Shown here piece after piece: positions 14,881 to 54,132 of a stretch of DNA of 64,000 bases. This DNA is from a virus: the IMG/VR virus record IMGVR_UViG_3300009448_000011, positions 41,688 through 105,687 of that record; one strand, 5' to 3'. A program made the translations under genes and the position numbers. The first letter of the stretch is position 1. Each line of letters starts with the position of its first letter. The notes beneath the pieces were generated by a model. That model was given only the letters and a program-made list of their open reading frames with translations. It ran no database searches and was not told the origin of the DNA.

Positions 14881-16053
14881 TTAACAATTAGCCTCATAAA
14901 TAATAACATCACTAGAGACGTCATCTTGTTTATGAGAACACAAATGAATAACTTTAATAGGAGTTGAGTTTTTAACATCAATTTTTTTAATATTAATTTG
15001 AACAGTATCAAGAGGAAGAATTTTATGTTTAGGGCCACCCATAGCGCGAAGAGCTTTAATAATATGGCCAACAGAAAGATTAATTTTCTCAAAAATACCT
15101 TGAGTAGAAACTTTCAAAGAAGAAGGAATAATAATATTACTTTTACTACTATCAATTTTAATATGAAATTGGGAGAGTTCGAGATCAACTTCAAAGTTAA
15201 TAATATTAGTTTCAGTAGAATCATAACTTTGCCATTTAATACTTTCAGTAATATCTTCATATTCGACTTGAATAAAGGAATTACAAGGTTGAGAAATAAT
15301 AGTATCAACTTTAAGAACAATATTATTAGGAGAATTATCAACTATAAAACACATTTCGCCTTCATTAGAATAAAACTTAAGAGAGTTAAGAGAAGAGCTA
15401 AAAGAAAGCATTACCTGATCGCCGAGGAGAGGAATAATACGAAGAAGAGCGGGTCTAATAGCGCCTTTAAAATGGCCAGTACTATTAGTAGAAGTAATAG
15501 ATTTATAGCGAATATAGCTAGTTTCAGTAAATTGAACATACATAAAGATAGTAGAAGAATTAGTAGTAACAAATATTTCTCTATCATTATAAGAATTAGC
15601 ACAAGCAATAGGAATCAAGTCCAAGAAATAAGAAAGAGAGGGACAAATATCGACATAAGAAAGAGGATCAAATAATTTATCAGAAAGAAGACTATCTTGA
15701 CTAAAATATTGATTATCAACAATAGAGCCAAAAGGTTTCATTTCATAATGTAAAAGATTATTATTACTAGAGATTTCCAAGCCATATTTAGGATTAAGCT
15801 TAGCAGTCATTGCTTTTAATTTATTAGAGAGAACAATTTGGCGACCTTCTTCAACAATATCAACTAAAAGTTTCAATTTAACAGAATGACTAGTCAAATC
15901 AACAGTAGTAATTTCGAGAGTCCCTTCCGCTTTATTTGTTTTTAACTCAATACATTGTTCCACACTATTAAGTTGTTTTCTTATACTAGGAATCGAGCAA
16001 ATAGCATTAATGATTTTTTTATAATCAGCTATATTTTCTATTCTAACTTTCAT
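14881..16053 (-). CDS. dnaN: Beta-type DNA sliding clamp (DnaN-like)
   Basis: 390 aa, close to the bacterial beta clamp (about 370). It begins MKVRIENIADYKKIINAI and shows the repeating clamp-domain pattern, including LVDIVEEGRQIVLSNKLKAMTAKL and a third-domain ENYNLSVGHIIKAL-type segment. The clamp would tether the family A polymerase to DNA and is loaded by the DnaX-like protein nearby. Most large phages use gp45/PCNA-type clamps, so a beta-type clamp points to the host lineage. The call rests on overall pattern and context. Confidence 0.65.
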   Translation of the reverse strand: MKVRIENIADYKKIINAICSIPSIRKQLNSVEQCIELKTNKAEGTLEITTVDLTSHSVKLKLLVDIVEEGRQIVLSNKLKAMTAKLNPKYGLEISSNNNLLHYEMKPFGSIVDNQYFSQDSLLSDKLFDPLSYVDICPSLSYFLDLIPIACANSYNDREIFVTTNSSTIFMYVQFTETSYIRYKSITSTNSTGHFKGAIRPALLRIIPLLGDQVMLSFSSSLNSLKFYSNEGEMCFIVDNSPNNIVLKVDTIISQPCNSFIQVEYEDITESIKWQSYDSTETNIINFEVDLELSQFHIKIDSSKSNIIIPSSLKVSTQGIFEKINLSVGHIIKALRAMGGPKHKILPLDTVQINIKKIDVKNSTPIKVIHLCSHKQDDVSSDVIIYEANC

Positions 16054-16093
16054 AATATTATTTATATTCTTTATTATTAATAATCAATTACAT

Positions 16094-16123
16094 TTGACAT
16101 ACTAAGTTATGGTATGTTATACT
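16094..16123 (+). promoter_or_regulatory. Sigma-70 promoter of cassette copy 1
   Basis: TTGACA at 16094-16099, an 18-nt spacer and TATACT at 16118-16123. A start near 16130 leaves the ATG at 16148 of ORF A with an AAGGA ribosome site. The other three cassette copies have matching promoters. Confidence 0.8.
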
Positions 16124-16147
16124 TTAAAAAAGGAAAAAGAGAATAGA

Positions 16148-16732
16148 ATGAATTTAGAAACTTGTCAAAACTTAAGCTTGATAATAGAAAAAGACCAAAC
16201 AATTGAAGTAATTGAAATTTGGGCAAAAGTATTATATATAAGAAGAAGCAAAGGAAGAAATTCATTTTATTCGAAGAAAGGAATAACAAAAGAAACAGAA
16301 GGAATATTTTGTAATAACTTAAAAGTTTCAGAAAATTATAAAAGCCTTTTTAAAAAATACCACCCCGATTTAAACAAAGGAAAAGAAAGTTATGTTGACA
16401 TTTCAAAAAACATTAATAGATGGAAAAACTTATTACTTGAGAGTGGACAAAGAGAGTTTGATCAACAATTATATACAGAGCTTATTGAGTTTTGTGGACC
16501 ACTCACATCCATTTTCACTATTGGAACCAGAGCAAGTTTTATCGCAAAACAAACGTGCGGATCTATCAACATCCCTCAATTTAGTTCTGAACAGGAATTT
16601 GTTGAGTGGAAAGCAGCGCCAAAGCAAGTTGCTTCCAGGCAAGCGTTCCTTGATAGCCAACTTACTAGAGCTCAAATCATCAAAAAGTACGGTAAATCCT
16701 ACTATGATTATGAAAGAGATCTTCCTTTTTAA
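16148..16732 (+). CDS. Cassette ORF A, copy 1 (HPD-motif protein)
   Basis: 194 aa from the ATG at 16148; an earlier in-frame ATG lies in the promoter. It belongs to a four-copy family in this window: an N-terminal block (ETCQNL.LIIEKD...EVIEIWAKVLYIRR.KGR..F.SKKGIT) followed by YKSLFKKYHPDLNKG...ISKNINRWKNLL. The latter resembles helix II, HPD loop and helix III of a J-domain. The region from about residue 82 overlaps ORF B and ends ERDLPF. Function unknown; it may partner or fuse with the nuclease encoded by B. Confidence 0.75.
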   Translation: MNLETCQNLSLIIEKDQTIEVIEIWAKVLYIRRSKGRNSFYSKKGITKETEGIFCNNLKVSENYKSLFKKYHPDLNKGKESYVDISKNINRWKNLLLESGQREFDQQLYTELIEFCGPLTSIFTIGTRASFIAKQTCGSINIPQFSSEQEFVEWKAAPKQVASRQAFLDSQLTRAQIIKKYGKSYYDYERDLPF

Positions 16733-17138
16733 TCCTGACCAGGACACTATAATACGTCCTTACGGATTAGAAAAAAATCAAATGTATAGTAATTATATGC
16801 CAACGGGCAAAGAAAGCAAAAATTATTTAAGGAGTTACATTAATAAAGCAGAATCTTTAGGGATCAAAGTCAAAGCTTTCAATTTTAACATTTGCGGTCC
16901 TGTTGTCACACAAGAAGCTATTGAATTCGCCAATTACATGAATATTGCAATTAAAGAATTAAATGGAGTGAAAATACAAATCAATGTATTCACTTTGGAA
17001 CAATTAATCAAAGAATTAATGACAAATATAAATGGAAACAAATGGTTCATCACTTCGCAAGTTCCAAGTATATGCTGGGGAAAAGATCAGGTACAATATT
17101 TAATTTCAGAAAAAAAAGCTATATTAACAGAAAGTTAA
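16392..17138 (+). CDS. Cassette ORF B, copy 1 (PD-(D/E)XK-like nuclease, free-standing)
   Basis: 248 aa. It starts inside ORF A in the +1 frame, preceded by AAAGGA. Conserved family features are FQKTLIDGKTYYL, HPFSLLE, KRADLSTSLNLVL and LLELKSSK, giving an Asp...Glu-X-Lys nuclease signature, though RAD replaces the RPD of the other copies. The C-terminal half (KESKNYLRSYI, GPVV, LEQLI, NKWFI) is conserved across copies. This copy is not inside an intron: it lies between the clamp start and the end of a convergent gene. Confidence 0.75.
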   Translation: MLTFQKTLIDGKTYYLRVDKESLINNYIQSLLSFVDHSHPFSLLEPEQVLSQNKRADLSTSLNLVLNRNLLSGKQRQSKLLPGKRSLIANLLELKSSKSTVNPTMIMKEIFLFNPDQDTIIRPYGLEKNQMYSNYMPTGKESKNYLRSYINKAESLGIKVKAFNFNICGPVVTQEAIEFANYMNIAIKELNGVKIQINVFTLEQLIKELMTNINGNKWFITSQVPSICWGKDQVQYLISEKKAILTES

Positions 17139-17240
17139 CGTTCTGATTCATCTATTCCTTCAGACTTATCAATTTTATTCATTTCGCCCCAAAGACCATC
17201 TAAATTTTCTTCATCAGAACCCTCATTGTTCTGATGATTC
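17135..17240 (-). other. Possible -1 frameshift extension of the 17223-17696 gene
   Basis: The upstream gene stops shortly after a run of nine A residues (17241-17249, minus strand). In the -1 frame the reading continues for 34 codons with an acidic tail (EGSDEENLDGLWGEMNKIDK) to a stop at 17135. A slippery A-run directly before the frame change suggests programmed frameshifting, transcript slippage, or an indel error. Confidence 0.4.
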
Positions 17241-17696
17241 TTTTTTTTTCTCAACCTTACTAAAGTCTTCAGTTACAGTATTAAAAATTTTAATAATAGC
17301 TTGTTTTTCTTGTAGAAACTTCATTAAGGCACTTGTTAGTGAAGTATTACATTCACTAACAACATGCATAGAATATTCAAGATAAAGATCATCAGGGTTC
17401 AAAGAACTAAGAGAAAGAATACCTTCAAGACCAGGCTGAACACTCATAATAATATTAATCAAAAAATCGGGGCTTATAAAAAGAGGAACTTCTATAGGCA
17501 AAACAATACGAATTAAATGATTAGATAAAGGATAAATTTGAGAAAAACCGTACGAAGTTTCTCCTTCAATTAACCACCCTTTATCTTCTAAAAATTTAAC
17601 ATTACAAAATTCTAAATATTGAAATAATATTTTATTATTACGAATAGAAAGCATATATTCGTAAGGATTAAAATTAGGATTAGGAGTAGAAAGCAT
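17223..17696 (-). CDS. Hypothetical protein with repeated N-terminus
   Basis: 157 aa, family not recognised. The N-terminal NFNPYEYMLS block occurs twice because of a 33-bp in-frame direct repeat, so translation could begin at the ATG at 17696 or at the second one near 17654. The C-terminus is charged and ends SKVEKKKESSEQ in this frame; a -1 shift on the preceding A-run would add 34 acidic residues. It converges on cassette copy 1. Confidence 0.6.
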   Translation of the reverse strand: MLSTPNPNFNPYEYMLSIRNNKILFQYLEFCNVKFLEDKGWLIEGETSYGFSQIYPLSNHLIRIVLPIEVPLFISPDFLINIIMSVQPGLEGILSLSSLNPDDLYLEYSMHVVSECNTSLTSALMKFLQEKQAIIKIFNTVTEDFSKVEKKKESSEQ

Positions 17697-17719
17697 ATAT
17701 TCGTAAGGATTAAAATTAG
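17645..17719. repeat. 33-bp direct repeat, two copies
   Basis: Identical 33-bp units at 17645-17677 and 17687-17719 (period 42 nt, preserving frame). The repeat spans the start of the hypothetical gene and lies about 50 bp from the TnpB element. Confidence 0.9.
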
Positions 17720-17957
17720 TTTTAAAAAAATTGACTTTTTGTTATTTTGATTTACCTAAAATAGCAGAATGCCCCCATCAGAACGGTACTCCGTTTGGTG
17801 GCGGGATGAATGCGAGTGAGGCGACGATTGCCTGTCCTCCTTCCGAGATCTACCGATTGTCGGGATTGTCGGACAGGCATAAGGAGACGAACAAATTCAT
17901 TGCTTATTCAATGTTTTATCTGAGTTTTTCTGGATAAAATTATGCTATCATAGTTTC

Positions 17958-19220
17958 ATGATAGTTAGAGAAGCCAAGCTAAAATACGGTACAGCAGAGC
18001 AATATTCTGCCATTGATAAAGCCATCCGAACAGCACAGTTCATTCGGAACAAAGCCGTTCGCTATTGGATGGACAATCAAGGTACGAGTAAAGCCGATCT
18101 GTACAGTATCTGCAAAGACTTGGCTAAAGAGTTTGACTTTGCTAAAAAGCTTAACTCCGCTGCTCGTCAGGCTAGTGCTGAACGTGCTTGGGTTGCTATC
18201 TCTAGCTTCTACACCCGATGCAAAAAGCGGCTCACTCCAGTTGGGTCTCCCAACCATGGAAGTAAGACAAAACAAGGCGTAGGCAAGAAAGGTTTTCCAA
18301 AGTTTAAGAAACATTGTCGTTCTGTTGAGTATAAGGTTTCAGGATGGAAACTATCGAAAGATTGCAAATCGATCGCATTCACTGATGGTTTTGAGATTGG
18401 AACATTATCGATATTTTGCAACAATGAAACTCAAGAAGACTTGCATAGGCTGAAAATTAATCGTGTGCGGATCGTGCGGAGAGCAGACGGGTATTATGCC
18501 CAATTCTGTTTTGATGCAGATCGTAAAGAGCAAGGGGAATATTCAGGCAATGTTGTCGGATTGGATTTAGGGTTGAAGTTTTTCACCAAAGACCAAAACG
18601 ATAATGCTGTAATATATCCACAGTTCTTGAGAAAGGCCCAGATGCAACTCAAGAAAACTCAACGTCGATTAAGCAAGAAATTTGTGAAGGGTGCCAAACC
18701 CCAATCAAACAACTACCACAAGGCGCAAAAACAACTAGGAAGAATTCATCTCAAAATTCAACGCCAGCGAAAAGATTGGGCGATAAAAGCCGCCCGAAAC
18801 GTAGTGATATCTAACGATGTCGTGGTGTATGAAAATTTGAAGATTGCGAACATGGTCAAAAATCATCATTTGGCTAAGTCAATTTCCGATGCTGGTTGGT
18901 ATCAATACACTCAATGGCTGGACTACTATGGCAAGATTTGGGATAAAGCAGTTGTGGCAGTATCGCCAAACTATACGTCTCAAGATTGCTCTAATTGCGG
19001 TCATCGAGTGAAAAAGTCTCTTAGTACCAGAACGCACTCATGCCCCAACTGCAAAATTGAAATTTGTCGCGATACGAATGCGGCTTTGAATATCTTGCAC
19101 AAGGGATTGAACATTCTTGGTGTTGAGTGGGACAAAAACAGTACTTCTGGGCAAGAAGGATCTGCCTCTGAGAATGAGGGAAAGCGCGGGGAGAGATGTA
19201 CCTCTACAGTCGATGAGTAA
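17958..19220 (+). CDS. tnpB: TnpB RNA-guided nuclease (IS200/IS605 family)
   Basis: 420 aa. RuvC-like catalytic motifs are complete: GLDLGLKFF (Asp), VVYENLKIANM (Glu) and CRDTNAALNIL (Asp). The zinc finger CSNCG...CPNC sits between the last two. TnpB proteins use an RNA from the element's right end to cut DNA at the donor or target site. Codon usage and GC content differ sharply from the phage genes, indicating recent acquisition, probably from a cyanobacterium. The ORF shows no damage. Confidence 0.93.
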   Translation: MIVREAKLKYGTAEQYSAIDKAIRTAQFIRNKAVRYWMDNQGTSKADLYSICKDLAKEFDFAKKLNSAARQASAERAWVAISSFYTRCKKRLTPVGSPNHGSKTKQGVGKKGFPKFKKHCRSVEYKVSGWKLSKDCKSIAFTDGFEIGTLSIFCNNETQEDLHRLKINRVRIVRRADGYYAQFCFDADRKEQGEYSGNVVGLDLGLKFFTKDQNDNAVIYPQFLRKAQMQLKKTQRRLSKKFVKGAKPQSNNYHKAQKQLGRIHLKIQRQRKDWAIKAARNVVISNDVVVYENLKIANMVKNHHLAKSISDAGWYQYTQWLDYYGKIWDKAVVAVSPNYTSQDCSNCGHRVKKSLSTRTHSCPNCKIEICRDTNAALNILHKGLNILGVEWDKNSTSGQEGSASENEGKRGERCTSTVDE

Positions 19221-19303
19221 TTAAAGACTGCAAGTAATTCTCTGTGAACCGCGAATAAGAATCCCCCGCTATATCGGTACTTCGATTAGCGGCGGGAGTA
19301 TGT
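19150..19303 (+). ncRNA. Candidate TnpB guide RNA (omega RNA) scaffold
   Basis: In TnpB elements the guide RNA scaffold covers the end of tnpB and the right-end hairpin, with the guide taken from flanking DNA. The right-end hairpin at 19263-19297 and its position fit. Boundaries are inferred. Confidence 0.4.
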
Positions 19304-19349
19304 CAAAAAAAGTCAATGAAAAAAGTAAAAAAATTAATAGTTAAAAAAA

Positions 19350-19772
19350 TTAATAGTTAAAAATATCTATAGTTGTATTATTGTTAGTTCGTTTAAAGAT
19401 ATAACTATTATTTTGATAGAGGGTGTATTCTTTTAATTGAATACCAGGAGTGATCAAGTCATAATCAAAAGCAACAATAGCATAGCCAGTGCCATCATTA
19501 ATAGTCCAGGTTATATAGAACTTACTTTTCAAATATTGATCATAGCTAGTATCCATGTCGTAGTAGATACCGTAGGGGGTAGTATTTTCCAGGTAAATTT
19601 GGCTAGAAGAAGTAGCACAATAATTCGATTCTGTCAAACCCAACCACATATTATCGGGAGAACAAGTATTTTGAGAATTTGGCTCGGTTAATTGAAGTTC
19701 TGCAGAGGCAGAAGAACCGCTGATCAAAATACTTAAAATAACTACAATGCCGATTTTCAAATTATTAAACAT
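19350..19772 (-). CDS. Secreted hypothetical protein
   Basis: 140 aa with a clear signal peptide: MFNNLKIGIVVILSILISG followed by SSASAE, a likely signal peptidase I site. The mature part has two Cys (CSPDNMW, YCATSS) that could form a disulfide, and is rich in Tyr, Thr and Asn, suggesting a beta-rich periplasmic or extracellular protein. No family recognised. Confidence 0.6.
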   Translation of the reverse strand: MFNNLKIGIVVILSILISGSSASAELQLTEPNSQNTCSPDNMWLGLTESNYCATSSSQIYLENTTPYGIYYDMDTSYDQYLKSKFYITWTINDGTGYAIVAFDYDLITPGIQLKEYTLYQNNSYIFKRTNNNTTIDIFNY

Positions 19773-19900
19773 TATTTTTTTTATAGTAAATAGTGAATAT
19801 TAAATAAATTACATATTTTCAATTAAAGCAGCAAAATGTCCTCCTTCGGACTAGTATTCCAGTTAAAGGAGGGTAAGGAAGTAATGTTAACAATTTTTTT

Positions 19901-20503
19901 TCATTTAGCGGCCCAACTAGTACCCAATTTACATTCTGCTTTAGAAGGAAAATCAGGCACTAATTTATGTAATAATTCATCCATTGCTTTTTTCATTCCT
20001 AATTCTTGTGCAGCAGCATATTCATAAGAAATATCTTGAAATTTATATTCAGGAATATAAACTTCCCCATCTTTTCTTACATTTACTACTTCACCTTGTC
20101 CAGGGATATAAGTAATACATTCATCATGAACTAAGCCTACGATATAGCCTGGAGAAGAATGTTGTTTATACTTAGTATTAAGCTGAGTAAAAAACTGATC
20201 GATATAATGTGCGGCGCGTTTTGTCATAATACTAGAAAGGCCTTGTATAATGGTATTACAACCTTTACGCATAGTAGCGCCATCATTTTCTATTCCGTGA
20301 GCATTACCTTCGCCAACGAAATAGCGTCTATTTGTTATAGGACATTGTACCCATTTTTGATATCTAGCCAAAGAACTAGTATTATCAATATAGACTTGCA
20401 ATTCTGGAAATAAATTAAAATAGTTTTTAAGAAGTTGTTCAGCAACCTTAATATCTATTTGAAGAGCGGTAGAAATTCTATTAGCACTTCCACCATAAAT
20501 TAC
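19901..20503 (-). CDS. Family A DNA polymerase, C-terminal part, exon 3
   Basis: 200 codons encoding the end of the polymerase fingers/palm. The exon starts at VIYGGSANRIS, the second half of motif B, and contains motif C GLVHDECITYIPG. Open reading extends upstream (to 20563) into intron sequence, but the splice point is set by joining ...KVCGFT to VIYGGSA. It ends WAAK-stop. Together with the exons at 21788-22051 and 23374-23460 it would make a 317-residue polypeptide. Confidence 0.88.
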   Translation of the reverse strand, partial: VIYGGSANRISTALQIDIKVAEQLLKNYFNLFPELQVYIDNTSSLARYQKWVQCPITNRRYFVGEGNAHGIENDGATMRKGCNTIIQGLSSIMTKRAAHYIDQFFTQLNTKYKQHSSPGYIVGLVHDECITYIPGQGEVVNVRKDGEVYIPEYKFQDISYEYAAAQELGMKKAMDELLHKLVPDFPSKAECKLGTSWAAK

Positions 20504-20556
20504 CTTAAACCCTAAATTTTCATCTAGGTTTGGACTATACCTTTTAATGTAATTAT

Positions 20557-20586
20557 TTGACATACATTAAAACACCGTGTTATAAT
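20557..20586 (+). promoter_or_regulatory. Sigma-70 promoter of cassette copy 2
   Basis: TTGACA at 20557-20562, an 18-nt spacer and TATAAT at 20581-20586, antisense to the intron and just beside its S element. Confidence 0.82.
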
Positions 20587-20613
20587 TAGTATAACAAAGA
20601 AACATTTTAGATA

Positions 20614-21192
20614 ATGGACATACAAACAGCGGCGAATTTACAAGAATTAATAGAACAAGATCCTTTAATAGAATTAATCGAAATATGGGATAAAGTTTTA
20701 TACATAAGAAAAGTAAAAGGCCGAGGAAGGTTTCATACTAAAAAAAATATTACTTTGTTAAAAAGTGGAATATACATCAATACAAAATATATACTCCAAG
20801 AATACAAAAGACTTCAAAAAAAATATCACCCTGATTTAAACAAAGGAAAAAAAAATTATGTTGAAATTTCAAAAAGCATTAATCAATGGAAAGACTTATT
20901 ATTTGAATGTGACGAAAGAGAACTCAATAGAACAGTATATCAGTTACTTATTACAACATGTGGACCGCTCACATCCATTTTCAGCATTGGAAAATCAGCA
21001 GACTTTATTTGGGGGCAAGAGGCCGGATTTCTCCACATCCCTAGATTTAATTCTGAACAGGAATTCAAGGAATGGAAAATTCCCTTTAGGAATTGGGCGG
21101 AAAAACTCGATGATTGCCGATTGCCTAGAAGTAAAAGGAAGTTCTCAGATGTTGAGCACTACGGAGTTAATGAAAGAGATCTTCCTTTTTGA
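20614..21192 (+). CDS. Cassette ORF A, copy 2 (HPD-motif protein)
   Basis: 192 aa, aligning throughout with copy 1: QTAANLQELIEQD, ELIEIWDKVLYIRKVKGRGRF, YKRLQKKYHPDLNKG, VEISKSINQWKDLLFE, and after the ORF B start SIFSIG, RFNSEQEFKEWK and the C-terminus NERDLPF. The J-domain-like HPD element is intact. It lies antisense within the polA motif B intron. The stop falls in the sequence that codes MKEIFLF in ORF B. Confidence 0.75.
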   Translation: MDIQTAANLQELIEQDPLIELIEIWDKVLYIRKVKGRGRFHTKKNITLLKSGIYINTKYILQEYKRLQKKYHPDLNKGKKNYVEISKSINQWKDLLFECDERELNRTVYQLLITTCGPLTSIFSIGKSADFIWGQEAGFLHIPRFNSEQEFKEWKIPFRNWAEKLDDCRLPRSKRKFSDVEHYGVNERDLPF

Positions 21193-21589
21193 TGCAGCAG
21201 AAACTATTGTTCCTACTTATGATGTTTCTATGTCTGATTTTCAATCTCAATATTTTCCATTGGGGAAAGAAAGCAAGAATTATTTCAGAAGTTATGTGCA
21301 GGAAGCACTTAATAGAGGCATCAAAGTGAAATCATTTACTTTTTGGTTTGCGGGCCCTCTAGTGTCTATTGAAGCCATCAAATTTTCTATTTATTGGAAT
21401 CGCGTGATCAAACAAATAGGTGGAATTCAAGTAGAAATCAAAGTTTTGTCTTTGGAACAATTAATTAATTACATCATTTCCAATATTCCAACAAAAAAAT
21501 GGTATGTATTAAATCAACATCCTTCTGTTTGTATGAGTAGAGCGCAGGTTGAAGCTCTAATAGAAGCTCAACTAGCCATTTTAGTATAA
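20858..21589 (+). CDS. Cassette ORF B, copy 2 (PD-(D/E)XK-like homing nuclease)
   Basis: 243 aa, starting 244 nt inside ORF A in the +1 frame with AAAGGA upstream. FQKALINGKTYYL, HPFSALE, GKRPDFSTSLDLIL and ADCLEVKGSS give a textbook RPD...E-V-K PD-(D/E)XK arrangement. The C-terminal half is conserved (GKESKNYFRSYV, GPLV, LEQLI, TKKWYV). Its place inside a group I intron makes a homing endonuclease role likely; cyanobacterial I-Ssp6803I is a precedent for this fold in homing. Confidence 0.78.
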   Translation: MLKFQKALINGKTYYLNVTKENSIEQYISYLLQHVDRSHPFSALENQQTLFGGKRPDFSTSLDLILNRNSRNGKFPLGIGRKNSMIADCLEVKGSSQMLSTTELMKEIFLFDAAETIVPTYDVSMSDFQSQYFPLGKESKNYFRSYVQEALNRGIKVKSFTFWFAGPLVSIEAIKFSIYWNRVIKQIGGIQVEIKVLSLEQLINYIISNIPTKKWYVLNQHPSVCMSRAQVEALIEAQLAILV

Positions 21590-21616
21590 TCTTTTAATAT
21601 CTAATTATCTTTAAGT

Positions 21617-21650
21617 CGCCTTGTACATTAATGTATTTAGGCGTTTTTTA
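21617..21650 (+). terminator. Terminator of cassette copy 2
   Basis: CGCCT...AGGCG stem with an inner TACAT/ATGTA pairing, followed by TTTTTT, 27 nt after the ORF B stop. Confidence 0.8.
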
Positions 21651-21787
21651 TTATGTATTCTTAAAAGTCTCTGAACCATTTTATAAACTTTCATTTATAG
21701 CTGGCTGCTGATTGACATATAGTATTTTTTAAACTACTTAGTGTTCCAGCAATTGAGTGTTTTTTACTTCACCATAATTTACAATTT

Positions 21788-22051
21788 AGTGAAGCCGCAG
21801 ACTTTACCACGGTCTCTTCTTGTCCATCCATTCATATCTTTTTTAGCTTCTTTAATAACATTCCATTTAGGAACAGTAGCTAATTCAGGGTACATTCCAA
21901 TAGCCGAAACTACATGAAGATCCCCGTCAGGATTAGGATATGTTTCTTTTGTATGTGGATTAATAAGAAAGGGATTATGCACTTCGGCATCGAAAAACGC
22001 ATTAATCATTCTCTCTATTTTTGCTATACAAGCAATAGCTCTTACTTCTTG
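21788..22051 (-). CDS. Family A DNA polymerase, C-terminal part, exon 2
   Basis: 88 codons, from Q-E-V-R-A-I-A-C-I (directly after motif A DYSA) to RRDRGKVCGFT (first half of motif B; the Arg and Lys bind the incoming dNTP). Splicing joins DYSA to QEVRAIA and CGFT to VIYGGSA, restoring both motifs in frame. It includes the expected O-helix region and the ELATVPKW segment. There is no start codon of its own at the exon edge, supporting splicing rather than separate translation. Confidence 0.85.
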
Positions 22052-22271
22052 CAATATAGTTTTATTCTATACTGGCACTACTCTTCACCATCTCTATTAA
22101 GTACAGGTGTTTTACGTCAGTGCTCTACTCTTGCCCAATTAATATAATAGAATAATAGTTCTAATTAATTTGCTAGATCGGGATTAGTTTACTATCACTT
22201 TCCCCGAATTGGTAAAATATTTTTTATACTATTTCTAATATAAACGACCCTTTTTTATTGTATTTATTTGT

Positions 22272-22300
22272 TTGACATTCAGCCATATAAGAGATACAAT
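22272..22300 (+). promoter_or_regulatory. Sigma-70 promoter of cassette copy 3
   Basis: TTGACA at 22272-22277, a 17-nt spacer and TACAAT at 22295-22300, 28 nt before the ORF A start. Confidence 0.78.
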
Positions 22301-22327
22301 AAAAAAAAGACAAAAAACAAATAAGGT

Positions 22328-22900
22328 ATGGATGCTCAAACTTGTAGAAACCTACAAACATTAATTGATAAAGATAATAATATTGAACTCATAGAAATAT
22401 GGGCCAAGGTACTTTATCTAAGAATGAAAAAAGGAAAAAACAAGTTTTGCAGTAAAAAAGGAATAACTAATTTAAGCTCAGGAATTTATTTAAACTTAAC
22501 TAACTTTAAAAATGAATACACAAAATTGCAACGAAAATATCACCCAGACAAAAATGCAAAACATTTTGAAATTTCAAAAGGTATTAATCAATGGAAAGCA
22601 TTTATATTTGAATGTGACAAACGAGAACTTAATAGAACAGAACTTAATACATTACTTGAATCATGTCCCCCCAACACATCCTTATTCTCTCTTAGAGAAC
22701 CAGCAAGTTATTTACAACAACAAGAGACCGGACTTTTCAACCACCTTGACGACATTGCCAGGCACTATTGGGCCACTGTTACGCCTAAGCAAAGAGCTGA
22801 GGCAGAAGCTAGGGAAGAAGAATGGCTTGCTCGTCGATGTGGTAGAAACAAAGATGGAAGTAAATACGTCGACCCTTATGAAGGAACTTGTCCCTTTTAA
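22328..22900 (+). CDS. Cassette ORF A, copy 3 (HPD-motif protein)
   Basis: 190 aa with an AAGG ribosome site at the ATG. It matches the other copies over the N-terminal part (CRNLQTLIDKDNNIELIEIW, LYLRMKKGKNKFCSKKGIT, YTKLQRKYHPDKN, FEISKGINQWKAF). The C-terminal part is closest to copy 4 (GRNKDGSKYVDPYEGTCPF against GRDKEGNKIRDTYDGTLPF). Copies 3 and 4 form one subgroup, 1 and 2 another. Confidence 0.75.
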   Translation: MDAQTCRNLQTLIDKDNNIELIEIWAKVLYLRMKKGKNKFCSKKGITNLSSGIYLNLTNFKNEYTKLQRKYHPDKNAKHFEISKGINQWKAFIFECDKRELNRTELNTLLESCPPNTSLFSLREPASYLQQQETGLFNHLDDIARHYWATVTPKQRAEAEAREEEWLARRCGRNKDGSKYVDPYEGTCPF

Positions 22901-23300
22901 AGAAGATGCACAACAATTTGTTGATTCATCTTTTAGAAAGGAACAATTTACTTTTAATGCAGAACGCGTTGTCAATTATAAATGTTACATAAGCAATTAT
23001 GTGAAAGCTGTTCAACAAAAAAAAGGTAAAGTAAAACAAATTACTTTTGCTTTTGTAGCTCCAAAAATAACAGTAGATGCATATGAATTGGCGTGGATTT
23101 TAACACATAGTCCAATTTACAATAATATTGGTGGCGTTAAAATCATAGTAGAATTATATACATTAGAAGCTTTTATCGAAAAACTGATTAATATAATCCC
23201 AGCCAATAAATGGTTCATTAAAAGTTCAATTCCTTTTAATTGTGTAAATGGGAGAGATGTAGATCTTCTAGTTAAAGAAAATAGAGCTATTATTATTTAA
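22512..23300 (+). CDS. Cassette ORF B, copy 3 (PD-(D/E)XK-like homing nuclease)
   Basis: 262 aa from the ATG at 22512, which aligns with the start in copy 4; the in-frame ATG at 22554 would give 248 aa. Nuclease motif: KRPDFSTTL...LLVDVVETKMEV (Asp and Glu-X-Lys). The C-terminal segment GPKI-like APKITVDA, LEAFIEKLI and ANKWFIK matches the family. It lies in the +1 frame relative to ORF A, as in all copies. Confidence 0.75.
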   Translation: MNTQNCNENITQTKMQNILKFQKVLINGKHLYLNVTNENLIEQNLIHYLNHVPPTHPYSLLENQQVIYNNKRPDFSTTLTTLPGTIGPLLRLSKELRQKLGKKNGLLVDVVETKMEVNTSTLMKELVPFKEDAQQFVDSSFRKEQFTFNAERVVNYKCYISNYVKAVQQKKGKVKQITFAFVAPKITVDAYELAWILTHSPIYNNIGGVKIIVELYTLEAFIEKLINIIPANKWFIKSSIPFNCVNGRDVDLLVKENRAIII

Positions 23301-23329
23301 TTTATTTATTTTTTATCTTTAGTAATAAA

Positions 23330-23360
23330 CTCAGTATATAGGTGTATACTGAGTTTCAAT
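23330..23360 (+). terminator. Probable terminator of cassette copy 3
   Basis: Nine-bp stem CTCAGTATA/TATACTGAG followed by a weak T-rich stretch. On the other strand the same stem lies at the 5' end of the intron and may be part of its fold. Confidence 0.5.
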
Positions 23361-23373
23361 TTATATTTAGTTA

Positions 23374-23460
23374 AGCCGAGTAATCACTAATACCCACACA
23401 CATACCTTTAGGCGCCGCACCTAAAGCTTTTCTTACCGTTGTTGTAATTTCATATGACAT
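23374..23460 (-). CDS. Family A DNA polymerase, C-terminal part, exon 1
   Basis: 29 codons from an ATG at 23458-23460. After MSYEITT it reads VRKALGAAPKGMCVGISDYSA, the strand leading into polymerase motif A (DYSxxE, catalytic Asp). The reading stops one codon into the intron. A start codon directly before the conserved VRKAL suggests that the C-terminal half of the polymerase is a separate polypeptide, made after splicing of two introns. Confidence 0.75.
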
Positions 23461-23522
23461 ATTTAATTTTAAATTTGGTTTAATTAATGAAAAAGAATAA
23501 ATAGCAATAGAATTAAAATATT

Positions 23523-23864
23523 TTAAACAATATTATGTTTCAACAAAACAAGAATGATTTGTTTAATAATATCGCCATGACAATCATTAGGTTTGCACCA
23601 ACAAGCAAGTTTAAAATCTACCCCTTTTTTTTCTAATTGAGCTAAGCGAATCAATTCATCATAAACAGAGCCTTTTTTCAAAGAATACATTTGAAGAATC
23701 CAGGCCTTATAGAGCTGTAGACTTTCTGCAAGAGTTCTATTATGTCTAACTGCATAAGGATTATTTAAAGGGCTAGCTTTTAAATTGTAATAAGCATTTT
23801 TACGGCCAATGTAGATAATATCTTCGCCAACAAATCCGTCTTTTTTCCCATTGATAATGTGCAT
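23523..23864 (-). CDS. DUF4326-like protein inserted in the polymerase gene
   Basis: Start taken at the ATG at 23862-23864 (MHIINGKKDG), 113 aa. IYIGRKN, SPLNNPYAV, LYKAWILQ and LACWCKPNDCHGDII match the small DUF4326 family found in phages and bacteria, whose C-terminal Cys/His (CWC..ND.CHGD) may bind metal. It is a same-strand gene between the two halves of the polymerase, 12-20 nt after the N-terminal half. Biochemical function unknown. Confidence 0.7.
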   Translation of the reverse strand: MHIINGKKDGFVGEDIIYIGRKNAYYNLKASPLNNPYAVRHNRTLAESLQLYKAWILQMYSLKKGSVYDELIRLAQLEKKGVDFKLACWCKPNDCHGDIIKQIILVLLKHNIV

Positions 23865-23883
23865 AGAGTTGTTCAATTAAATA

Positions 23884-25173
23884 TCAAAATTGATGTTGAT
23901 CAATAGAAATAACAGCAAGAGTAGAAGAAACTTGTTGTAAATTAGCAGAGCCACTAGAACTCATGCGACCTGTACTAGAACCTATAGAAGAAAAACCGAC
24001 ATGTACGTTATTAGTAGTACTATTAATAATAGAGTTATACTTCAAACATTCAGACCAAAGTTTACTATATTTTTTATAACGTAACAAATTTTTAATTAAA
24101 TTAATATGACTATATTTAGAAATCAAATAATTCTCATCAAATAAAGGTTCTTTTTCTTCATCAAGGGCTTCTTGTTTTAGTAGATCAAGATATAATTTTA
24201 TTTCATCTGCTTGCAAGCTAGATAAAGAAGCGCCGCCTAATTTAGTCAAATAATCATTAATAAAAGAAACTAAGCCCTTATTATTATTAAGTAAAGTTTT
24301 GACTTTATCAGGAATAACATACTTAAGTTCCCAATGACCTTGAGCATTAAGATCAGTATCAGTATAGATAGTAAAACCTAATTCATGTACTAAATAAGAT
24401 CTATGAAGATTAGTTTGTTCTTCGGCATAAGAAGTAATCTTAGCTAATAGAGAAGTATCGAGACACATGCCGTAATATTCCATTTTTGCACAAATAACAG
24501 TAGCTTGCTGATCTGATTCGTATGCAAATTGTTGATGAAGAAGATCAAGTTGAGTTTTAAATAAATAATAACCTTCAATTAATATAGAATTAATAGAAGA
24601 AAGTTTAGGAGCGCCAACATCTAAAGCGGCATAACCTAATTGGCTAGTAGTTAAAGGTCGTTCACCCCAAGAACTAGTAGCTTCACTTTTATCGAGATGG
24701 ATATCAAAATAATCCCTTGCTAAATCTTTAAGACCATGGCCTCTAAATATAGAAGCTTTCATTCCTGTAGTAATGGCCAAACTTTTCATTAAAGTCAAAG
24801 AACAAACAGTATTAACGGGCCAGGATTTAAACTCGTTATAAAATTGTTTTAAATCAAATTGACTATAGTGAAGTATTTTTAATATATTTTCATTAAGCAA
24901 TACTTTTGTATTAAATAAAGATTTAGCAGAAGAACTCAATAATATAAAATCTAAAATATAAGGAATAGAATGATTTATACTATTTAATTGAACTAAAGAT
25001 ATTTTAGAACTATGAGGATCCAAAGCACTAGGATTTACTTTAGATAAATCAATCATAGTTTCAGTATCCAGTGCAATTTCCTTACTTTCTACACAAAAAT
25101 CAATTATTGCCTCTATATCTTTATCTTCTGTTACATAATAAATATCAATTTCCGCTGTTTCTATTAATTTCAT
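23884..25173 (-). CDS. Family A DNA polymerase, N-terminal polypeptide (exonuclease and thumb)
   Basis: 429 aa. 3'-5' exonuclease motifs: ALDTET (I), ILHYSQFDLKQFY (II) and GYAALDVGAPKL (III). The thumb follows, then the start of the palm with IGSSTGRMSSSGSANLQQV, the conserved template-binding stretch before motif A. It then departs from the family (SSTLAVISIDQHQF) and stops. With the 317-residue C-terminal product, the total is 746 residues, close to one-piece T7-type polymerases (about 700). The enzyme therefore seems to be split between the NLQ and motif A blocks. Confidence 0.88.
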   Translation of the reverse strand: MKLIETAEIDIYYVTEDKDIEAIIDFCVESKEIALDTETMIDLSKVNPSALDPHSSKISLVQLNSINHSIPYILDFILLSSSAKSLFNTKVLLNENILKILHYSQFDLKQFYNEFKSWPVNTVCSLTLMKSLAITTGMKASIFRGHGLKDLARDYFDIHLDKSEATSSWGERPLTTSQLGYAALDVGAPKLSSINSILIEGYYLFKTQLDLLHQQFAYESDQQATVICAKMEYYGMCLDTSLLAKITSYAEEQTNLHRSYLVHELGFTIYTDTDLNAQGHWELKYVIPDKVKTLLNNNKGLVSFINDYLTKLGGASLSSLQADEIKLYLDLLKQEALDEEKEPLFDENYLISKYSHINLIKNLLRYKKYSKLWSECLKYNSIINSTTNNVHVGFSSIGSSTGRMSSSGSANLQQVSSTLAVISIDQHQF

Positions 25174-38715: not shown

Positions 38716-39507
38716 TTAAACAGATATTAAATCACTAAAAGCTTGCATATGTTCTTTGCGCATTGCTTTATATGCCTCAGACTTACCAATTTTGTAGGGT
38801 AGTTTTTTATTATCTATTTTTTGTGCTTTACTAAATAGAGTAATCACACTTGTCACTAAAATTTCTTTACGAGGTAAATTATCTTCAATACTTCCTAATA
38901 CATTAAATACATAACATGCCGCTATAAATTCTTCTTCTGTTTTACAATACGACGGTAATGAATAACTTAATCCATATAAACCAGTTATTTTAGTAGGAAG
39001 AATATTTTTAATTAAGCGATCATCTTGGAGGACACCTAGACGAATATATTCAGACATAGGGGCAAGGCTAGCTAATTCTTCAATAACAAAAAAGAATTCA
39101 TGAGCAGTAGCGGCGCCTAAAAGACCTGGTAAAATAATTTTTAATTGTTGTTCATCAGTAATTTTCTCCATAATATTGGAACATTTTTCCCATGAACGGC
39201 TAGAAGGATTAATTTTATCATCATTATCTGCGACTGATTTAAAACCTTCGTCAAGAAATTCAGGACGAGCTCTTAAAAAAGCTTTAATAGAAGGAATAAT
39301 AGGGCGGCCGTTTTCTGCGCGATGGGCTTCCCATTTTAACCAAGCATTTACAGAAGTCATTACGTCAAAATGAATAAAACGATCTGAGATAGCACTAGAT
39401 AACTCATAGGCTATAGCACCATCTTCTACTCTATTTCCTGCTGCAATAATCATTACATTATCAGGAACTTTATATTTATCAATTTTTCTATCTAATATTA
39501 ATTCGTA
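38716..39507 (-). CDS. MoxR-like AAA+ ATPase, exon 2
   Basis: 263 codons beginning YELILDRKIDKYKVPDNVMIIAAGN (sensor 1) and continuing through DRFIHFDV, the arginine-finger region typical of MoxR proteins. An in-frame ATG 8 codons upstream lies in intron sequence. Joined to exon 1 it gives a 385-aa ATPase that would act with the VWA protein. Confidence 0.88.
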   Translation of the reverse strand, partial: YELILDRKIDKYKVPDNVMIIAAGNRVEDGAIAYELSSAISDRFIHFDVMTSVNAWLKWEAHRAENGRPIIPSIKAFLRARPEFLDEGFKSVADNDDKINPSSRSWEKCSNIMEKITDEQQLKIILPGLLGAATAHEFFFVIEELASLAPMSEYIRLGVLQDDRLIKNILPTKITGLYGLSYSLPSYCKTEEEFIAACYVFNVLGSIEDNLPRKEILVTSVITLFSKAQKIDNKKLPYKIGKSEAYKAMRKEHMQAFSDLISV

Positions 39508-39752
39508 CATTAATATACCTTTAATTTTCATTAAAGAACGGAATACATTTTAATCTTTACTATATTTATATAGTATTAAGACTTGGACACTCTAGGTAAA
39601 ATTATAGTCTGTTTAACTTAAGACATCATTTACTACTCTCTACATTATTATTAAACATTACTTTAATAATTAACACGGGATTACCTTATAGTTTCCTACT
39701 TAGGTTTCCCCGTTAGCCTAATCTCTATTTGTTCTTTTTTGATTAAACCCTA

Positions 39753-39781
39753 TTGACTTATTAAAACCAATACATTATAAT
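39753..39781 (+). promoter_or_regulatory. Sigma-70 promoter of cassette copy 4
   Basis: TTGACT at 39753-39758, a 17-nt spacer and TATAAT at 39776-39781, antisense within the intron. Confidence 0.78.
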
Positions 39782-39820
39782 ATATTTAAATACACACACA
39801 TTTACAAATAAGAAATTCAA

Positions 39821-40411
39821 GTGGACATACAAAGTTGTAAAAATCTTCAAGCATTAATTGATAAAGACAATAATATTGAACTCATAGAAATATGGGCTAA
39901 TATATTGTATTTAAGAATGCGAAAAGGAAAAAACAAATTTTGTAGTAAAAAAAGAATAACTAATTTAAAAGAAGGTGTTTATTTAAATATCTATACTTTT
40001 TCTAAAAATGAATACAAACAATTACAGCAAAAATATCACCCTGACACCAGCTCAAAATATTTACACATTTCAAAAAGTCTTAATCAATGGAAAGATTTAT
40101 TATCTAGATGTGACTACAGAGTCCAAAATAGAAGCATATATCTTGACATTGCTGCAACATATTCCAACAACCCATCCATATTCTCTATTGAAAAATCAAT
40201 TAGAATATTCAGTATGGCAAAAGAGGCCCGACTTTTCGACGGACTACTCGAGGATACCGCAGAGTGGGCAGAAGGATGTGATGAAGCCTGGCTCGCTCAA
40301 CAAAGAGCTGAGAGCCAATCTAGGTGGAAAGAATGGTCTAACTGGCAACGTGGTCGAGATAAAGAAGGAAATAAAATTAGAGACACTTATGACGGAACTC
40401 TTCCTTTTTAA
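39821..40411 (+). CDS. Cassette ORF A, copy 4 (HPD-motif protein)
   Basis: 196 aa with a GTG start (GTGGACATACAAAGT, aligned with the ATG starts of the other copies). CKNLQALIDKDNNIELIEIW is almost identical to copy 3. YKQLQQKYHPDTSS and ISKSLNQWKDLL form the J-like element. The C-terminal part is longer and Glu/Trp-rich before YDGTLPF. Function unknown. Confidence 0.73.
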   Translation: MDIQSCKNLQALIDKDNNIELIEIWANILYLRMRKGKNKFCSKKRITNLKEGVYLNIYTFSKNEYKQLQQKYHPDTSSKYLHISKSLNQWKDLLSRCDYRVQNRSIYLDIAATYSNNPSIFSIEKSIRIFSMAKEARLFDGLLEDTAEWAEGCDEAWLAQQRAESQSRWKEWSNWQRGRDKEGNKIRDTYDGTLPF

Positions 40412-40814
40412 TACAGAAGAAGAAGTATTTCTTGCTCCTCTCGGTAAAACTCACGATCAATTTCTAAAAGAAAATCCTATAGAAACTTCTTCATCTAAAA
40501 TGTATATACTTGCCACTAAACTTCATGCACAAAAATTAGGATTTAAACTAAAAAGATTAAATATGACTTTTGTGGCGCCTCTTGTTTCTAACAAAGCATT
40601 ACAATATGAACAATATCATAACAAAGCTATTAAAAATATAGGAGGAATTGCAGTAGATTTAAAAGTATTTACCTTAGAACAATTCATTAATGAATTATTT
40701 ACTTTAATTCCCGACAGTAAATGGTACATAAAAGATAATCATATTCCTTTTATCGCCTTGTCAAAATCTAAAGTAGAAATATTACAAGAAAATAATTTAG
40801 CCGTTATAATGTAA
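40008..40814 (+). CDS. Cassette ORF B, copy 4 (PD-(D/E)XK-like homing nuclease)
   Basis: 268 aa in the +1 frame inside ORF A. FQKVLINGKIYYL, HPYSLL, KRPDFSTDYS and GNVVEIKKEI carry the nuclease signature. The C-terminal half shows APLVSNKAL, LEQFINELF and SKWYIK like the other copies. It lies in the moxR intron, so the expected target is the intronless moxR Walker B-YEL junction. Confidence 0.77.
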   Translation: MNTNNYSKNITLTPAQNIYTFQKVLINGKIYYLDVTTESKIEAYILTLLQHIPTTHPYSLLKNQLEYSVWQKRPDFSTDYSRIPQSGQKDVMKPGSLNKELRANLGGKNGLTGNVVEIKKEIKLETLMTELFLFNTEEEVFLAPLGKTHDQFLKENPIETSSSKMYILATKLHAQKLGFKLKRLNMTFVAPLVSNKALQYEQYHNKAIKNIGGIAVDLKVFTLEQFINELFTLIPDSKWYIKDNHIPFIALSKSKVEILQENNLAVIM

Positions 40815-40832
40815 TCATATTCATTTTTATTT

Positions 40833-40875
40833 AAATCTCTCTTATTGTGTTATTGCTTTAAGAGAGATTTTTATT
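40833..40875 (+). terminator. Terminator of cassette copy 4
   Basis: AATCTCTCTTA/TAAGAGAGATT stem followed by TTTTTATTT, 20 nt after the ORF B stop. Confidence 0.8.
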
Positions 40876-40939
40876 TGGTACGCAATAGTTTGCCCAGTTT
40901 TACTTATATATTTCTATATAAGGTGCCTACGAATATTTA

Positions 40940-41305
40940 AGCACTTGCTTGTAAACGCGGTTCAGCCGCACTTAATTCATCTAGAAAAATAATACAACCT
41001 TCTTTACCCCAACTAGCAATCATTTCTTCTGTTGGTAAAAATTCAGGTAAATAATAAATAGTTTTTTTACTTTCTTGATGTAGATAAGGAAGTCCTGTTA
41101 AATCAGTACTATCCATTCTAGTAAGTCTTAAATCAATTAGCCCCCAATTTAATTCTGTAGCTATTTGTCTTACAATATCAGATTTACCACAACCAGGTTG
41201 TCCATGTATATATACAGCATTTTTACGTAAGTCTGTATCTTTTGCCATTGTTAAAATACAATTTTTAATTAAATCAGGCGTAGTGGGAATAGTATTAATT
41301 GTCAT
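40940..41305 (-). CDS. MoxR-like AAA+ ATPase, exon 1
   Basis: 122 codons: Walker A HGQPGCGKSDIV and Walker B CIIFLDELSAAEPRLQASA, where coding is interrupted by the intron. The TAA read one codon later lies in the intron. AAA+ proteins of this type use ATP to remodel partners through an adjacent VWA protein. Confidence 0.9.
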
Positions 41306-46075: not shown

Positions 46076-47101
46076 TTATTTTACAAAAGTAGAATGTTTT
46101 TGATTAGCCCAATTAAAGTCAACGTTACTATAATTAAAATTATTAAAATCTTGTTTTAAAAGACTAGTATAATTATCACCATTGATTGCTTGCGCAAAAA
46201 AGTCGTGTGAAGATTGTCCAATTACTTCATTTAAAAACCAATTAGAAATATTGTACGCTCTTTTATCAAAACTAAAAATAGGCGTTAATCCTAATGCTTC
46301 TAATCTATTATTAGCCCTTAGATACATGTATTGTTTTAAATCTTCACTATTAATAAAAGGTAAAAGTCTATTGTTAAATATTTGATTAATAAAATTAAAT
46401 TCATTATCTAATACAGTTCTAAACCCTTCATATATTAATTCTTCTTCTTCTTCTGTTATTCCTTTTTCTAATACTAAATCTTTGAATAATGCACAACCCA
46501 TATCACTATGTGTCATTTCATCAGATATACTCCAACTAATAATTTGAGCTAATCCTTTATATCTTCCATTACGAGATAAAGATAACAGAACTGCAAAACT
46601 AGAAAATAAAGCGACGCCTTCTCCCGCACCACTAAATACTGCAAGAGATACTAATTTATTAGGATGCTCTACAAAATATTCTATTTTTGTTTTAGTCGTA
46701 GGATCATCAAGAAACGCATTATAATCATTTAATCCTAAACAATCACTTAAATGAGAATATGCCTGACTATGGATAACTTCAAAAAAAGCAAAAGCTCTAC
46801 ACGCCGCTACAATCTCGTGTTTAGGAAATATTTTAGGCACTATGTCTGACCAATAATCCCCTATTCGTGTTTCTAAAATAGTAAACCCTTTTAAAATACC
46901 TTGAATAATTTCTTGTTCTTCTATACTCCCTGTTTGATAATTAAGAATATCACTATTCATGTCTACTGTTTCTACACGCCATACCGTAGATAACGCTTGT
47001 TTAAAATACTCAAAATATTTGGGATGTGAAAACGGTTTATACGCAACCCTAAGGTCTTGTATTCCTAAATTATAAGTATTGTTTATTTCTATATGTGACA
47101 T
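46076..47101 (-). CDS. nrdB: Ribonucleotide reductase small subunit
   Basis: 341 aa. Metal ligands and radical region are visible: EQEIIQGIL and TILETRIGDYW (first Glu/Asp group), FFEVIHSQAYSHL (Glu, His and candidate radical Tyr) and SISDEMTHSDMGC (Glu/His). It generates the radical for NrdA, which starts immediately after its stop. Confidence 0.92.
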   Translation of the reverse strand: MSHIEINNTYNLGIQDLRVAYKPFSHPKYFEYFKQALSTVWRVETVDMNSDILNYQTGSIEEQEIIQGILKGFTILETRIGDYWSDIVPKIFPKHEIVAACRAFAFFEVIHSQAYSHLSDCLGLNDYNAFLDDPTTKTKIEYFVEHPNKLVSLAVFSGAGEGVALFSSFAVLLSLSRNGRYKGLAQIISWSISDEMTHSDMGCALFKDLVLEKGITEEEEELIYEGFRTVLDNEFNFINQIFNNRLLPFINSEDLKQYMYLRANNRLEALGLTPIFSFDKRAYNISNWFLNEVIGQSSHDFFAQAINGDNYTSLLKQDFNNFNYSNVDFNWANQKHSTFVK

Positions 47102-53429: not shown

Positions 53430-53780
53430 TTAATATGTGGGTTGGGTTTCAATCCAATCTTTAGTGTAGGAAGCCAAAATTAAGTCTTGTTGAACAAAAG
53501 TATAGCCTTGTATATTTTCTACAATGAATATATGTTTACGTTTAAAAAAAGTAACAAGATTTTCTCCAAACATAAGTTCACCAATTAAGTAGTTTTTAAC
53601 ACTACCGTTAAATTGGCCAAAATAATAAAGATAAGAAGAAGGTTCTGCTGAATTTTTTGTAGTGGAACTACCTGAAAAAAACTGACAATATTGTTTTTTA
53701 AAAATTCTATATAGTTTTTGTTCAAGTAGAATACTAGGAGTAAGGGAGGTTATTTTGTTTAATTTAAACTTCTGCGTCAT
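53430..53780 (-). CDS. Hypothetical protein
   Basis: 116 aa, basic and beta-rich (YYFGQFNGSVKNYLIGELMFG). It overlaps the J-domain gene stop by 17 nt. Unknown function. Confidence 0.5.
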   Translation of the reverse strand: MTQKFKLNKITSLTPSILLEQKLYRIFKKQYCQFFSGSSTTKNSAEPSSYLYYFGQFNGSVKNYLIGELMFGENLVTFFKRKHIFIVENIQGYTFVQQDLILASYTKDWIETQPTY

Positions 53781-54132
53781 AAAAAGCGTTTTTAAAAATA
53801 GAATAAGCTTGATTTAAAATTGCAAAAGCATTAGGGTGCCCATCCCTATCAGGATGAAATGTTTTAGATAAAGTTTTATACTTTTGTTTTATAGTAAATA
53901 AAGAATCGTTACTAGAAAAGTTTAAAATTTTTATTGCTTTAGTAGCAGCTACTACAGGATCATCCCCAAAATATTCTTCTGGTAATATGTTAATCCATTC
54001 TGATTGGGGGCCTAAAATTTTACTAATATTCTTAAAAGAACTTTTTTTATATATAGGGGCTCCTTTACCAGTAGTAAGATAGATAATAGTTTTTTTAAAT
54101 CTTCGATCTAATAATTTAATGTTTATGTTCAT
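53764..54132 (-). CDS. J-domain protein
   Basis: 122 aa. The C-terminal 60 residues match a J-domain: LFTIKQKYKTLSKTFHPDRDGHPNAFAILNQAY, with the HPD loop between helices II and III. J-domains stimulate Hsp70 ATPase, so this could recruit host DnaK for virion assembly or replication. It is a useful reference for the HPD motif in the cassette A proteins. Confidence 0.78.
   Translation of the reverse strand: MNINIKLLDRRFKKTIIYLTTGKGAPIYKKSSFKNISKILGPQSEWINILPEEYFGDDPVVAATKAIKILNFSSNDSLFTIKQKYKTLSKTFHPDRDGHPNAFAILNQAYSIFKNAFYDAEV

Follow-up and report, generated by a model that had tools for sequence, protein, structure and literature searches.

Two genes that share more than 300 nucleotides of one DNA strand in different frames, four times over in one phage genome, raise two questions: how is the overlap read, and what does the gene pair do? 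Long same-strand overlaps with both frames under selection are rare outside small viral genomes. The window analysed here (64,000 nucleotides, bases 41688-105687 of a 105,687-base virus record) carries four such A/B pairs, all on the plus strand. The first-pass annotation offered two alternatives: either both proteins are selected, or the carboxyl terminus of A is a by-product and a +1 frameshift joins the amino-terminal domain of A to a nuclease encoded by B. The best explanation, with a probability of roughly 0.7, appears to be a two-protein homing-endonuclease-like cassette with real dual coding.

Four copies of an overlapping gene pair

Copy 2 illustrates the arrangement. Gene A (20614..21192, plus strand; 192 aa) encodes an amino-terminal region, a J-domain-like HPD segment, and a dual-coded carboxyl terminus ending in ERDLPF. 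Gene B (20858..21589, plus; 243 aa) encodes a putative nuclease with residues E21, D57, and E91-x-K93. The overlap (20858..21192, plus) spans 335 nt and is read by B in the +1 frame. The remaining genes, likewise on the plus strand, are as follows: copy 1, an intergenic copy adjoining TnpB, A at 16148..16732 and B at 16392..17138; copy 3, A at 22328..22900 and B at 22512..23300; and copy 4, A at 39821..40411 with a GTG start, and B at 40008..40814. Overlap lengths in copies 1 to 4 are 341, 335, 389, and 404 nt. The geometry first described thus stands as to frame (+1 in four of four copies) and overlap length (335-404 nt), but the offset given for copy 1 does not: B most likely starts 244 nt into A, not 283.

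Certain start codons need comment. The copy 1 A reading frame is open from 16109, but that position falls within the promoter, which makes 16148, preceded by AAGGA, the most likely start of A. In copies 3 and 4, ATG codons of B lie upstream of its conserved [LY]xFQK start, so the B start codon there is uncertain (22512 or 22554 in copy 3). AAGGA precedes the B start in copies 1 and 2, whereas no clear ribosome-binding site is seen before B in copies 3 and 4.

Each pair has its own promoter-like sequence on the plus strand: TTGACA-18-TATACT for copy 1 (16094..16123; 11 of 12 consensus matches); a sigma-70 promoter TTGACA-18-TATAAT for copy 2 (20557..20586; 12 of 12, with TG); TTGACA-17-TACAAT for copy 3 (22272..22300; 11 of 12); and TTGACT-17-TATAAT for copy 4 (39753..39781; 11 of 12). 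Among 37 promoter-like matches in the 7.7 kb from 15900 to 23600, those of copies 1-3 are the three best (11, 12, and 11 of 12, copy 2 ranking first); that of copy 4 is the best of nine nearby. The distance from promoter to A is about 25-40 bp. Terminator-like hairpins lie 3' of B in copies 1 and 3 (copy 3, 23327..23356, plus) and, read by eye, in copies 2 (CGCC...GGCG followed by T6; 21617..21649, plus) and 4. By these signals the cassette is a predicted autonomous operon, antisense to its neighbours. Between copies 1 and 2 lies a TnpB gene (IS605 OrfB, Cas12f-like; 17958-19220, plus); no TnpA was identified among the genes examined.

The copies have diverged: relative to copy 2, the others are 37-49% identical in B and 41-51% in A. 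The best-conserved part of the cassette is the amino-terminal region of A (47-72% identity between copies), and the fastest-diverging is the B-only carboxyl terminus (28-44%). This contrast is compatible with either an evolving target recognition in B or gene conversion affecting the front of A. The amino-terminal A segments of copies 3 and 4 (22328-22570 and 39821-40065, plus) are 72% identical, with fewer synonymous changes, and their B-only parts 32%; gene conversion or domain exchange between these copies is possible.

No fifth B was found in the whole 105,687-base record; further matches to A number two, both weak, and one of them is an unrelated J-domain protein. Beyond this phage, protein, alignment, and degenerate-pattern searches of viral contigs, where a polymerase exon also served as query, and of GTDB genomes, phages, and plasmids returned no relative of A or B; three degenerate-pattern matches (L018-L020) encode no relative. 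Because the only contig found is 100% identical around copies 3 and 4, work of the dN/dS kind rests on the four paralogs.

Both frames of the overlap are selected

The first-pass annotation held that both frames stay open despite divergence and that A ends at a common position. Both points are borne out: the A frame contains no stop within the overlap in any of the four copies, where 4.7-6.1 per copy are expected given the B protein, and A ends at the same B column in all four, at CC[T/C]-TTT-T[A/G]A. Downstream of this end, the same frame contains 9-16 stops per copy (A's own stop counted). The third frame is full of stops across the overlap.

Permutation of synonymous codons gives these counts a scale. 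When synonymous codons are shuffled along the full length of B, the A frame survives without a stop in 0, 0, 0, and 1 of 5000 trials for copies 1-4. Permutation confined to the overlap, which keeps its higher GC and codon composition, yields P = 0.00015, 0.00085, 0.00115, and 0.00035; past the first 40 B codons the values are P = 0.006-0.034. The reverse permutation, with the A protein fixed, leaves the B frame open in 0, 4, 4, and 6 of 5000 trials.

Conservation of the A frame also exceeds what B can account for. The expectation was computed by fixing both B proteins as well as the level of synonymous similarity seen in the B-only region, and was summed over six pairs; these pairs, drawn from four paralogs, are not independent, and the z values are too large in detail. 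A-frame identities number 220 against 145 expected over the overlap (z = 10.5), 106 against 69 past the first 40 B codons, beyond the J-domain (z = 7.0), and 50 against 30 in the last stretch (z = 6.5). The downstream B-only control gives 153 against 143 (z = 1.5), so the method is little biased. B itself also bears the mark of a second constraint: its GC3 rises from 0.14-0.27 elsewhere to 0.42-0.51 within the overlap, where its codon usage is also more atypical than in any other part.

Simpler measures favour B. Plain position counts in the overlap show, in every pair, the fewest changes at B codon position 2 and the most at position 3, making B the more constrained frame; and past the J-domain part there is no excess synonymous constraint (synonymous identity 0.42, against 0.54 in the B-only region). 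Taken alone, these two measures argue against A, which is why the conditional tests are needed. The substitution analysis that the first-pass annotation called for shows both frames to be selected, with amino-acid-level selection the stronger in B.

Could B alone be real, with the A frame held open by local base composition? The overlap is indeed richer in GC (0.37-0.40) than its surroundings (0.24-0.33), and B is better conserved there than the A frame. However, the permutation that keeps the codon composition of the overlap rejects this reading in all four copies, and the A-frame identity test given B, summed over the pairs, rejects it as well; the third frame is riddled with stops in the same stretch; and the part of the cassette most conserved of all is the A amino terminus. 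This makes a spurious A extremely improbable. Stop avoidance, A-frame conservation beyond the share due to B, and the raised GC3 and atypical codon usage of B favour the first of the two original alternatives, in which both proteins are selected, and the overlap almost certainly encodes both.

The second alternative, that a +1 ribosomal frameshift fuses the A J-domain to B as one nuclease and that the A carboxyl terminus is a by-product, has some attractions. B is always +1 relative to A; the CC[T/C] TTT T[A/G]A that ends A in all four copies is a place where a +1 slip could occur, with the P-site UUU able to re-pair afterwards; and copies 3 and 4 are those in which a ribosome-binding site before B is hard to see. 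The position of any such slip is the difficulty. At the A stop, it would add to A no more of B than what follows the E...D...ExK core; earlier, it would leave the A tail unselected, contrary to the tests above. A by-product tail should gather stops, yet about 110 A codons are free of them in every copy, and the frame is conserved beyond expectation up to its very end. Whereas programmed +1 frameshifting would leave an unselected zero-frame tail, that of A is kept open and conserved. B, moreover, starts on its own, and in copies 1 and 2 an AAGGA lies upstream of that start. Frameshifting is thus very unlikely; separate translation of A and B appears the simpler reading.

A J-domain-like protein and a putative nuclease

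All four A proteins contain YHPD in the J-domain segment. Copy 2 A matches Pfam DnaJ at E 3e-5, below the curated cut-off; the A score is 24.4 bits where the cut-off is 27.8. The A match begins at profile position 15-18 of 63, and helix I is not recognised; A falls short of a full J-domain, with helix I, scoring above the cut-off. Helix III falls in the stretch that A shares with B. A profile of A matches DnaJ structures at E 2.5e-4, and DnaJ/HscB models match A weakly. Given the HPD motif and the helix II/III similarity to DnaJ proteins, A in all likelihood carries a divergent J-domain, which differs from theirs in its unrecognised helix I, its score, and its dual-coded helix III. Recruitment of host DnaK through HPD is a tentative proposal. 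A second, unrelated J-domain protein is encoded at 53764-54132 (minus); it scores 31.8 bits against Pfam DnaJ, above the cut-off.

Residues of B that are invariant in the four copies include E21, H39-P40, K54-R55, D57, E91, and K93. E...D...ExK is the pattern of PD-(D/E)XK nucleases. No meaningful match to B was found among Pfam, PHROG, NCBIfam, PADLOC, and PDB profiles. The AlphaFold model of B has a pLDDT of 49 and a further model one of 46, both too poor to use, and Foldseek gives no meaningful fold match for B. Assigned from its conserved motifs, B is a putative PD-(D/E)XK nuclease, an identification that is favoured on balance.

Three copies lie antisense in probable introns

The first-pass annotation did not include the surroundings of the pairs. 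Copies 2, 3, and 4 lie antisense within predicted introns of essential genes (polA and a MoxR-type gene); copy 1 is intergenic. The polymerase part of PolA, similar to gp178 of Microcystis phage LMM01, is encoded in three minus-strand pieces: exon A (23374..23460, ending in SDYSA), exon B (21788..22051, QEVR...KVCGFT), and exon C (19901..20503, beginning VIYGG). With a slash marking each join, these give SDYSA/QEVR and KVCGFT/VIYGG, where LMM01 gp178 reads VDFSS/QELR and KIMNF/KVIYGG without interruption. The joined exons score 93.2 bits against the DNA_pol_A profile, and the best single piece 64.8. The MoxR-type AAA ATPase is similarly divided, into exon 1 (40940..41305, minus; ending in LQASA) and exon 2 (38716..39507, minus; beginning YELILDRK). 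Joined as LQASA/YELILDRK, these score 44.3 bits against the AAA profile, versus 34.9 for the better single piece, and the protein aligns as one piece with phage ATPases. The first part of the pol gene (23884-25173) was considered as a further exon and dropped, the exonuclease and polymerase of LMM01 being separate genes. Between the exonuclease and polymerase genes in the window is a DUF4326 gene (23523-23876, minus); LMM01 has a different small ORF there.

The intervening sequences, all on the minus strand and numbered after the copies they contain, have features of group I introns. Intron 2 (20504..21787; 1284 nt) holds copy 2 antisense between P7(5') and P3(3'); in intron 3 (22052..23373; 1322 nt), the antisense copy 3 lies past the 5' splice site and ahead of the guide sequence; and intron 4 (39508..40939; 1432 nt) holds copy 4 antisense between P1/P2 and P3. 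All three have a P1 with terminal U.G (CUUCACU/GGUGAAG, CGGCU/GGUCG, and GUGCU/GGCAC) and a final G (omega-G). Elements P3-P9 were paired by hand in each; intron 4 is without a clear P8, and in intron 2 P7 has four pairs, with its 5' strand about 1.1 kb from its partner. The window has just two occurrences of a P4-P5 signature, GGGGAAA...AATCCC (0.06 expected), and these fall in introns 3 and 4. A simple core descriptor, which yields about 0.6 chance loci per 60 kb strand, finds introns 3 and 4 among four loci, where about 1.2 are expected by chance; the other two lie outside the introns. The Rfam group I model (RF00028) matches none of the introns up to E 10; on control genomes the same search finds matches in only 8 of 14, two of these over the cut-off. 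By hand assignment, the three interruptions are very probably group I introns. The cassette sits at a different structural place in each, which suggests that the three introns were invaded separately.

Phage genes split by free-standing endonucleases are known, and the silence of Rfam would also suit a lasting division of the host genes (as fractured genes, as split inteins, or through ribosomal bypassing) with no spliced introns. Against this, polymerase exon A would encode only 29 aa as a gene of its own; no intein halves are found at the exon ends; all three interruptions share a P1 with U.G, an omega-G, and paired P3-P9 elements; and, as described next, an allele exists that is joined at the inferred splice sites. 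A permanent split is accordingly most improbable.

The allele of intron 2 comes from contig IMGVR_UViG_3300022549_000125, which is identical to the window over about 37 kb, including each of the stretches compared near copies 3 and 4, and is 99.8% identical in its first 3 kb. It ends with GGCTTCACT followed by GTAATTTAT, which is exon B joined to exon C at 21788/20503. The intron 2 junction had been inferred before this contig end was seen, and the match is exact. The window's own record does not contain the joined sequence. The evidence consists of nine bases at one contig terminus, and the likeliest reading is an intron-minus allele where the assembly branches. Since a near-identical contig joins exons B and C, intron 2 appears to be polymorphic.

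The phage is unusually rich in selfish elements. LAGLIDADG inteins occur in the ribonucleotide reductase large subunit (43118-46075, minus) and in a metallopeptidase/VWA protein (DUF2201; 35913-38285, minus). An ORF at 140-2380 (minus) combines an amino-terminal half matching terminase large subunit/helicase-loader profiles with a Dda/PIF1-like helicase in its carboxyl-terminal half, and has a weak LAGLIDADG match between them. The ribonucleotide reductase small subunit (46076-47101, minus) is 50% identical to its counterpart in cyanophage S-TIM5, and the nearest relatives of the polymerase are from Microcystis phages; together these hint at a cyanobacterial host.

A proposed model for homing

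The sequence itself shows the overlap, its dual selection, the promoters, the intron positions, and the intron-minus allele at one site; nuclease activity, homing, and action of A with B are our inference. Each A/B pair would be a self-contained two-protein homing-type cassette, ordered as a strong sigma-70 promoter, A, B laid over the second half of A in the +1 frame, and in most cases a terminator-like hairpin, with A and B made separately from one mRNA. Three copies would have inserted antisense into three group I introns, each into a different loop, two in polA and one in the MoxR-type gene. B, helped by A, would cut the element-free allele at the conserved insertion site or close to it, after which repair would copy in both intron and cassette. 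The intron, spliced from the sense transcript, would hide the damage, and the antisense promoter would express A and B with no need to read them from spliced pre-mRNA. A would assist B, for instance by bringing in host DnaK by way of the HPD motif. A homing function is likely.

In a competing view, the operon is a passenger that serves some different function (toxin-antitoxin, anti-host, or anti-defence), and introns are landing sites that are merely tolerated. Strong early-type promoters, the small two-gene format with a J-domain partner, the putative status of the B nuclease activity, and the copy outside introns would all agree with it. Such a passenger would hardly be expected, though, to have three of its four copies in introns that interrupt replication or ATPase genes at conserved sites, one of them polymorphic; nor does it sit well with an invariant E...D...ExK, and matches to defence models are no better than chance-like scores. 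This view is unlikely, though less remote than frameshifting or a permanent split, and the homing cassette is preferred.

Related systems and implications

Parts of the proposed cassette have precedents. The HNH homing endonucleases I-HmuI (phage SPO1) and I-PfoP3I (cyanophage Pf-WMP3) are associated with group I introns of phage DNA polymerase genes (PMC3428280). The window likewise has a putative endonuclease gene within a group I intron of a phage DNA polymerase gene; here, however, it is antisense, has its own sigma-70 promoter, encodes a putative nuclease that is not HNH, and overlaps a J-domain gene in another frame. I-Ssp6803I, a PD-(D/E)XK enzyme (PMC3943268, PMC3428280), shares with B a group I intron location and conserved residues of the E...D...ExK type, but there is no detectable sequence similarity, and B (about 245-270 aa) is paired with an overlapping A. 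F-CphI was dropped as a comparison, being assigned to the Endo VII motif (PMC6083498).

Antisense homing endonuclease genes occur in group I introns of Didymium nuclear rDNA, where, as proposed here, the gene lies opposite the intron and host gene strand and is expressed separately (PMC9548176). Those introns are in eukaryotic rDNA, the enzymes are of the His-Cys type, spliceosomal introns are involved, and the parts of that account consulted describe no overlapping partner gene (PMC9548176). Among the free-standing seg and mob endonucleases of T4, some genes overlap upstream genes and segD is antisense (PMC2988022). T4 thus resembles the present phage in having several elements and an antisense case, but its overlaps are about 1-24 bp and concern translation control, whereas those here are dual-coding over 335-404 nt (PMC2988022).

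The open-access literature on homing endonucleases that was surveyed describes no overprinted two-protein homing cassette, and mentions no long same-strand overlap with selection on both frames for such an enzyme. The pairs may represent an undescribed homing system, in which two obligate overprinted proteins with about 110 codons in common, a J-domain recruiter of DnaK and a PD-(D/E)XK nuclease, invade group I introns antisense; this full combination is less likely than not.

Expression of an intron-borne endonuclease conflicts with splicing of its intron, and antisense placement with a private promoter would be a different answer to that conflict. Linked coding frames would stop recombination from separating the partner from the nuclease. 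The J-domain partner, if true, would tie homing to the host chaperone system. With four diverged copies and an intron-minus allele available from one population, both questions are open to direct test.
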